From NCBI GenBank assembly GCA_937138295.1, contig CAKZOX010000155.1:1-64000 (forward strand): a DNA stretch of 64,000 nucleotides, read 5' to 3'. Source of the DNA: an uncultured Campylobacteraceae bacterium (GTDB taxonomy: Bacteria; Campylobacterota; Campylobacteria; Campylobacterales; Arcobacteraceae). Positions 10,025-16,177 of the stretch are shown piece by piece. Each line of letters starts with the position of its first letter. Position 1 is the first letter of the stretch. Both the position numbers and the translations under genes were made by a program. Under the pieces are notes generated by a model that was not told the origin of the DNA, ran no database searches, and saw only the letters and a list, made by a program, of their open reading frames with translations.

Positions 10025-12975
<2,951 letters not shown>

Positions 12976-12979
<4 letters not shown>

Positions 12980-14524: not shown

Positions 14525-14920
14525 ATGAAAAAAGAAGATATATTAAATGATAAAATCATTTTTATAGTTGATGACGAATTAGATAGTGCTGAATCTTTAG
14601 AGTTTTTATTAAGTGAATATTATAAAAACATCTACACATATAAAAATGGATTAGAGGCGTATACAGCTATAGTAAAAGATGACATAATCCCTGATTTAAT
14701 AATATCAGATGTTCATATGCCAATGTTAGATGGTGCTGAAATGGTTAATAAATTAAAAATTTCAAAATATGATATTCCTATTGTTTTTATTACAGCTCAT
14801 TTAGATGCAGTAACACTAAAGAAAACAATTGAAACTGATCCATTAAGACTAATATATAAACCAATAACACACGTAGATATATTTGTAAATGAGATTAATT
14901 CTATAGTTTTAGGGGAATAA
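14525..14920 (+). CDS. Single-domain response regulator receiver protein
   Basis: The 131 residues are one receiver domain: the acidic pair D16-D17, phosphorylated Asp at D62 (IISDVHMPMLDG), the conserved Thr in FITAH and Lys in YKPIT. No output domain is present, so it may act by protein contact or pass phosphate on, for example to an Hpt domain. The ATG has AAGGAT upstream and follows the small kinase by 23 bp. The gene ends just before the hairpin at 14922-14951, which mainly serves transcripts coming from the other side. Confidence 0.88.
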   Translation: MKKEDILNDKIIFIVDDELDSAESLEFLLSEYYKNIYTYKNGLEAYTAIVKDDIIPDLIISDVHMPMLDGAEMVNKLKISKYDIPIVFITAHLDAVTLKKTIETDPLRLIYKPITHVDIFVNEINSIVLGE

Positions 14921-14951
14921 AAAAAGCCAAAACGCAAGCGTCTTGACTTTT
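14919..14951 (-). terminator. Rho-independent terminator for the minus-strand candidate RNA
   Basis: A 14-bp stem with two mismatches (arms 14922-14935 and 14938-14951, AA loop) is followed on the minus strand by seven T residues (14925-14919). On the plus strand there is no matching T run, so the site works best for leftward transcription. Confidence 0.75.
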
Positions 14952-15034
14952 GTGGAGTGTGATAAACAAAACCTTTTGTCTATCGGTTTTACTAATAAGT
15001 AAAACTTAATTACATTAATTTGTCTTTAACAATA

Positions 15035-15058
15035 TTAAGCATCAAATTCCTTCGTCAT
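15035..15058 (-). CDS. Seven-codon ORF (MTKEFDA) with very strong ribosome site
   Basis: The ORF is ATG ACG AAG GAA TTT GAT GCT TAA. GGAGG lies 5 bases upstream within ACGGAGGTG, which is almost fully complementary to the 3' end of 16S rRNA. Such a strong site is rare among the genes of this window. The peptide is not recognised. It may be translated as a leader peptide within the candidate RNA. Confidence 0.45.
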   Translation of the reverse strand: MTKEFDA

Positions 15059-15089
15059 TAACACCTCCGTATATTGTTTCTACATCACT

Positions 15090-15117
15090 ATTATAACAAT
15101 TTTTGAATTTAAAACAA
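15090..15117 (-). promoter_or_regulatory. Promoter of the candidate small RNA
   Basis: On the minus strand TTGTTT (15117-15112) and a perfect TATAAT (15095-15090) are 16 bp apart, predicting a start at about 15083. It lies just downstream of the permease gene stop at 15137, so it is not needed for that gene. Confidence 0.65.
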
Positions 15118-15136
15118 ACTTAAATTGAATAATATT

Positions 15137-16177
15137 TCATGAATTTCTCTTTTTTTGCTTAGAAATATCAGACATAAGTAGTGCAATCCACTTTGTTTGA
15201 TGATTTGAATTGAAAGCAATTTTTAAAGTCATAGTAATAGGAACAGCTAAAAACATTCCTACAATTCCTAATAACCATCCCCATAAAATAAGAGAAAAGA
15301 AAATTACTAAAGGTGATAAACCTAGTTCCTTACCCATAAGTTTTGGTTCTAAAATATTAGATATTGAAATATTGATAATAAAATACAATACCATGATATA
15401 TGCAGTTGTTTGTATATCAAGTTCTATTAAAGATAACAATATAGCAGGAATAGCAGCTACTAATGACCCAATTACAGGAACAAAATTGAATAATACAGCA
15501 ATAAATCCCCATAAAATAGGGTAGTCAACACCAAATAATATAAGCATAAAACCAATTAAAACACCCGTTAGTAAACTCGTAAAAGATTTTACAATAAAGT
15601 ATTTTTTGATATTGTGAGAAAATAACTCAAAGTGTTCAAAACTTTTTTGGTTTTTACCAAACAGCATTTTTAATTTTGTTTGAGAAGATTTTGTTTCTGC
15701 TAATATAAATGCAACTCCGATGATTACAAGTAAGAATTTACTTAAAAAACTTCCAATACTTCCAATAAGTGTAGTAGTAACACCGAAGAAAGATCCAACA
15801 TTTAATGTATCAAATATAGCGTCTTTATCTATTTGATAGCCATATTGTCCTGCTAAAGCAATTGTTGATATGATTAGTTTATTTAATTTTTCTTGATATG
15901 CATCAATATTTGATAAAAAATCTTGTAATGATAAGTTGATAATATAAACTGTAAACAAAGTAGCACCAATAAAAATGGATAAAACAACTATATAAGCAAA
16001 AAATCGAGGAAAGCCTTTATTTTGCAATAAATTTAATACAGTAGAGAATATTGAACTAATAAAAATAGCTAAAAATAGAATAATAACTATTTCACTAGCT
16101 ACTTTAATACCTGCTAATAATACTATCGTACAGGCTATATAAAAGAAATAATTTCTTAAATCAACTCTTGGGTGCAT
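15137..16177 (-). CDS. AI-2E family transporter (PerM/YdiK-like permease)
   Basis: The 346-residue protein has seven to eight hydrophobic segments in the order typical of the AI-2E/PerM family: two near the N-terminus, one at about 60-80, then a long soluble-looking insert and a C-terminal cluster (about 150-330) with GVDYPILWGFIAVLFNFVPVIGS and EPKLMGKELGLSP. Members export small molecules or exchange ions; the substrate here is unknown, and the AI-2 label should not be taken literally. It starts 10 bp after the ABC exporter gene and is probably co-transcribed with it. Confidence 0.88.
   Translation of the reverse strand: MHPRVDLRNYFFYIACTIVLLAGIKVASEIVIILFLAIFISSIFSTVLNLLQNKGFPRFFAYIVVLSIFIGATLFTVYIINLSLQDFLSNIDAYQEKLNKLIISTIALAGQYGYQIDKDAIFDTLNVGSFFGVTTTLIGSIGSFLSKFLLVIIGVAFILAETKSSQTKLKMLFGKNQKSFEHFELFSHNIKKYFIVKSFTSLLTGVLIGFMLILFGVDYPILWGFIAVLFNFVPVIGSLVAAIPAILLSLIELDIQTTAYIMVLYFIINISISNILEPKLMGKELGLSPLVIFFSLILWGWLLGIVGMFLAVPITMTLKIAFNSNHQTKWIALLMSDISKQKKRNS

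Follow-up and report, generated by a model that had tools for sequence, protein, structure and literature searches.

Dual-function sRNAs such as SgrS, RNAIII, SR1 and similar molecules encode peptides that are functional and conserved. The RNA described here is, like them, a small RNA with an open-reading frame (ORF), but its peptide is not conserved. The closest documented principle is found in the upstream ORF (uORF) attenuator of DUF1127 in S. meliloti, in which a short ORF's ribosome-binding site and its own codons fold together and are opened by ribosome occupancy; a role in gauging how readily ribosomes are available has been proposed for this uORF (Kothe et al., 2025, PMC12218461). The DUF1127 element is a cis-acting leader of a gene and is presumed to be Rho-dependent, whereas the present RNA stands alone, ends at an intrinsic terminator, carries a shorter ORF, and occurs in a different phylum. 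A second relative in principle is STAB-SD (Agaisse and Lereclus, 1996, cited in PMC3997798). It shares with our RNA a strong Shine-Dalgarno sequence (SD) near the 5' end and ribosome binding that is independent of any useful protein. However, STAB-SD elements lie in mRNA 5' UTRs, are not occluded, and do not need a start codon, while the RNA considered here is an independent small RNA.

Results

The unit spans positions 15124-14917 on the minus strand of the window, by which we mean the whole 64,000-nucleotide stretch of DNA that was analysed, and would yield an RNA of about 165 nt. Read from 5' to 3', it consists of an extended -10 promoter, a hairpin (P1) that holds an SD and a mini-ORF, two further hairpins (P2 and P3), and a terminator. 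On one side lies an AI-2E-family permease gene (15137-16177, minus strand), and on the other a convergent response-regulator gene (14525-14920, plus strand), whose 3' end is overlapped by the T-run of the terminator. The minus-strand fold has a free energy of -41.5 kcal/mol, 3.7 standard deviations better than shuffles (z = -3.7), and two terminator-like sites, the unit's own included, occur in 3 kb where 0.6 are expected. The original prediction had placed here a TATAAT box, an MTKEFDA ORF, GGAGG, two hairpins, and a terminator stem with its T-run, and each is found at the position given. Its inventory of hairpins was accurate for P2, P3 and the terminator, but missed P1, the 5' hairpin that encloses the SD and the ORF.

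With blastn, homologues turned up in a number of genomes from this bacterial family, in some of them twice; four of the matches (L010, L011, L012 and L016) were judged to be chance. A covariance model built on 12 sequences (R1) picked out 63 full-length matches, spread over 54 of the 104 genomes searched from the same family, with bimodal scores and with two copies in nine genomes. Named carriers include Poseidonibacter lekithochrous and P. ostreae, and the window's own genome has one copy. When the model was rebuilt on all 63 full-length copies (R2), it recovered the same set and a few weak matches. Three of these, all from one genus (L134, L135 and L138), are genuine remote members by inspection, with promoter, SD, seven-codon ORF and terminator, and their addition brings the total to 66 copies in 57 of the 104 genomes. 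Two others, L136 and L137, resemble the 5' end of a protein-coding gene and were set aside as chance. Nearly half of the 104 Arcobacter-family genomes lack the RNA. Inspection by eye of about 560 bases at the groEL locus revealed no remnant in 11 genomes that have no match, and the RNA-bearing control G063 shows the RNA there. In an order-wide draw of 399 genomes, covariance-model matches fell inside the same family and none outside it. In two genomes (G122 and G034) the second copies, L103 and L106, have a degenerate P1 but retain the SD, the start codon and seven codons (MTRRTFT).

The RNA matches no family in Rfam 15 at gathering or permissive thresholds; the best sub-threshold scores are 15-18 bits, against cut-offs of 36-128. 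A plasmid or phage origin was set aside, given that a plasmid search gave no match to the unit and that viral contigs gave none to the strict seven-codon pattern. An earlier survey of intergenic regions covered Arcobacter sp. L, a member of the same bacterial group, and it states that most of the novel regions from Arcobacter were rare, were limited to Arcobacter, and received no name (Stav et al., 2019, PMC6429828). In the main-text passages compared, nothing like the present RNA is described; the region may have been sighted earlier. The RNA is thus unclassified within the sources searched. The conservation in relatives, the covarying hairpins and the lack of an Rfam match strongly support the initial proposal of a small RNA of no known family. 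The outcome that this proposal had itself named as refuting, a lack of conservation among related genomes, did not arise. We are nearly certain that the unit is a real, new small-RNA family of the Arcobacter family.

Across the 66 copies the promoter takes the form TTTA(A)G-N4/5-TTTTAA upstream of a -10 or extended -10 element, TGnTATAAT. In the window, the upstream T-tracts (TTTAAG ... TTTTAA), of the periodic A/T type, lie at 15109-15124 and the extended -10 TG-T-TATAAT, conserved in most copies, at 15090-15098 (TATAAT, 15095-15090), all on the minus strand, with a predicted transcription start near 15083. The TTGTTT that had been read as a -35 element (15117-15112) overlaps the conserved T-tracts and is not itself conserved over the 66 copies. 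The intrinsic terminator occupies 14917-14951 on the minus strand, with its stem at 14951-14922 followed by the T-run; a terminator scan was positive in 62 of the 66 copies, and a terminator is visible by eye in the remaining four. Neighbours differ from genome to genome (names mostly read from sequence, with a Pfam scan for the window's neighbours only). A convergent groEL is common, with about 26 copies near that gene, and histidine kinases, response regulators and diguanylate-cyclase-like genes are frequent. The downstream gene varies in identity and is convergent in 42 of 63 cases. Because the location varies so widely and each copy brings a promoter and a terminator of its own, the comparison of sequences indicates a stand-alone gene and not a leader.

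Two local observations concern these surroundings. In three copies from one genus (L047, L048 and L051), a co-directional gene downstream of the RNA encodes a related protein of 252-256 aa with a signal-peptide-like start and a HELAHA motif; other copies of that genus lack this neighbour. At L146 (G088), near groEL, the sequence downstream of that gene holds a run of about nine C that may be phase-variable.

Hairpins P2 (14986-15005) and P3 (14961-14984), both on the minus strand, show two-sided compensatory changes within the family at 6 of 6 and 10 of 10 model pairs, respectively, with covariation at every pair of both hairpins. In a model-fitted alignment of the 63 copies, 91% of cells are standard pairs (37-51% in slid controls), two-sided change is seen at 18 of 24 pairs, and the covariation score is 0.36 (0.18 shuffled, at most 0.07 slid), figures that lean towards the structure because the alignment is fitted to it and the sequences are related. 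The slid controls preserve this relatedness, yet score far lower.

The most conserved bases of the RNA are the SD (GGAGGU) and the start codon, in and around the P1 loop. In the window the SD, GGAGGTG, lies at 15062-15068 (GGAGG, 15068-15064; minus strand) and is a 7-nt complement of the 16S rRNA 3'-end motif CACCUCC; GGAGG is near-invariant in the 66 copies. A valid start codon is present in 66 of 66, with 64 ATG and 2 TTG as counted; L077 was counted as a six-codon ATG ORF, and an in-frame TTG just upstream may be its start. The distance from the first G of the SD to the start codon is 10 in 62 of the 66. The window's mini-ORF, MTKEFDA followed by TAA, occupies 15035-15058 on the minus strand, and this copy is among the more divergent in the ORF. 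Start codon and ORF length are conserved and the peptide is not. Seven codons, the predicted length, are found in the window and in 43 of 66 copies but are not universal: 17 have 12 codons, and six have 6, 13 or 15. In the +2 frame of the same 66 copies, ORF lengths are scattered. The stop codon lies within the 3' strand of P1 or immediately beyond it, and since its position partly ties the length classes to the helix, we make no claim of independent selection on ORF length. Entropy at codon positions 1, 2 and 3 is 0.91, 1.18 and 0.96. With no excess at the third position, the peptide is not visibly under selection. Selection seems to act on ribosome binding and not on the encoded peptide, and it is probable that this initiation module is genuinely bound by ribosomes. 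The simplest partner of GGAGGUG is the 3' end of 16S rRNA.

P1 (15028-15078, minus strand) encloses the SD and the mini-ORF, its outer strands AACAATAT (15078-15071) and ATATTGTT (15035-15028) pairing with each other. In 63 copies it is 92% paired and for the most part conserved in sequence. When P1 is extended through the SD in a separate MAFFT alignment, 89% of cells are paired, compared with 46-61% in slid controls. Two-sided change occurs at 1 of 15 pairs, covariation is not clearly above shuffles, and RNAalifold returns no consensus structure on the plain P1 alignment; for these reasons, our case for closure of the SD by P1 is built on single-sequence folding, and P1 itself is supported by that folding together with its sequence conservation and its pairing relative to the slid controls. 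In these folds the SD has a mean open probability of 0.13 in the 63 copies; shuffling the loop alone raises this to 0.46. The predicted closing element is the pyrimidine tract at the end of the ORF, which varies (UUUUU, UCUUC, CCUUU) with the SD still closed. In L090, L093 and L097 the tract is UCUUC, not UUUUU, and in L108 and L109 the entire helix is rewritten, AGATTATAGGAGGT with ACCTTTTATAACT. Closure is weaker in the window copy (open probability 0.26-0.44) and involves other partners. Covering of the SD by the end of the ORF is a predicted feature that is conserved across copies. A P1-only model, used to ask whether the module also serves as a leader of mRNAs in other places, returned the known units and three weak matches (E 0.014-0.033), which lie inside coding sequence and look like chance. 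Judged by these matches, the P1 module never appears credibly outside the unit.

Profile searches for Hfq (PF17209) and CsrA (PF02599) were negative in all 104 family genomes and positive in control genomes, which removes two usual explanations. An Hfq-dependent sRNA was rejected on this count, as was a CsrA/RsmA sponge of the CsrB or RsmZ kind, which would carry several GGA loops, whereas the GGAGG here sits in a stem. A type I toxin resembling AapA was likewise rejected on ORF length, as the ORF has 6-15 codons in 66 of 66 copies and the hydrophobic toxin ORF of such systems, which comes with an antisense RNA, has about 20-30.

Discussion

A well-supported RNA family is hereby added to bacteria whose family yielded no Hfq and no CsrA in our searches. 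The best explanation overall, to which we would assign not quite an even chance, is that this free-standing small RNA gene begins, at the 5' end of its transcript, with a module for ribosome binding that is gated. As regards mechanism and targets, we infer the following. The 30S subunit would vie with the P1 fold for the SD. Free ribosomes would open P1 and translate or occupy the 7-12 codon ORF; otherwise P1 would remain shut. This switch could set how stable the RNA is, by shielding its 5' end from RNase J-type decay, and/or the access of a partner, by exposure of the 3' strand of P1 and the linker (UAUUGUUAAA...). The RNA may thereby report translation capacity, or ribosome availability, and it would be the act of translation that counts and not the peptide. 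We advance this full gated switch as a tentative model, clearly short of even confidence. That an SD-closing hairpin, in competition with the 30S subunit on an ORF for a meaningless peptide, gates a trans-acting activity without Hfq or CsrA and so makes the RNA a reporter of ribosomes is more speculative, and we consider it rather unlikely. The family offers a clean case of apparent selection on ribosome binding over the encoded peptide, and with it a direct way to ask if a small RNA can be controlled in trans through the translation of a mini-ORF that encodes nothing of use.

A sponge for ribosomes, one of the roles originally suggested, comes closest in spirit to the gated module, since what is conserved at the core is a site for initiation, and the 3' end of 16S rRNA is the one partner in evidence for it. 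The conserved occlusion of the SD, as predicted, argues for a gated site over a simple sponge.

The gated module has to be weighed against a trans-acting sRNA or sponge that works by base pairing, with its seed in the conserved P1 region (GGAGGUGnnAAUGACGAAGG) and a start codon that is incidental. The RNA would mimic the start region of an mRNA and in that way soak up another sRNA or bind targets rich in pyrimidines. The peak of conservation in and around the P1 loop is consistent with such a role, as are the nine genomes with two copies. The absence of Hfq is no obstacle, given that Campylobacterota have sRNAs that act without it. However, the start codon and its spacing from the SD are kept even where neighbouring loop bases are changed or deleted, ATG changes only to TTG, and 16S rRNA is the simplest candidate for a CACCUCC partner. 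We judge this alternative to be rather unlikely.

Alternatively, the 5' end could be a stability module only, in which the strong SD, a bound 30S subunit and the hairpin shield a structural or sRNA body (P2-P3) from RNase J-type 5' decay, with no sensing. A strong SD near the 5' end is what STAB-SD has, and a ribosome-associated RNase J is described for H. pylori, of the same phylum (both points from PMC3997798). Yet STAB-SD needs neither a start codon nor a short ORF and should not be occluded, and here predicted occlusion is conserved. Protection of this kind can be viewed as a simpler variant of the gated mechanism; as a full account of the RNA, we find it distinctly improbable.

The remaining explanations fare less well than these. 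A dual-function RNA or short-peptide gene, in which the peptide itself acts, had been among the first suggestions; every copy has the ORF and MTKxxHF is common in some genera, but residues change freely, with peptides that span MTKEFDA and MTGILHW to MTMISLFTVVNN and no third-position bias, which makes this very unlikely. A leader of some gene downstream, or a transcription attenuator left orphaned, also proposed at the outset, would account for the leader-like order of short ORF, hairpins and terminator, but it is largely refuted already and of very low probability, as the downstream gene is not constant and mostly convergent, the ORF has no run of regulatory codons, and its peptide is not conserved. 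The frequent groEL neighbourhood and an SD predicted to pair with a U-tract prompted the idea of a fourU-like RNA thermometer, which is scarcely credible: the SD opens in silico with a probability of 0.08 at 10 C, 0.13 at 37 C, 0.15 at 42 C and 0.21 at 50 C, it has no gene whose expression it could govern, and groEL lies on the opposite strand.

Elsewhere in the window, a purD RNA motif (RF01069; 60887-60996, minus strand) is the sole Rfam match at the gathering threshold. On the plus strand, a perfect in-frame AGT triplet repeat of 14.3 copies (11321-11363) encodes a serine run inside a 984-aa sensor-kinase-like ORF (10025-12979), where a change in repeat length would alter the protein without a frameshift.
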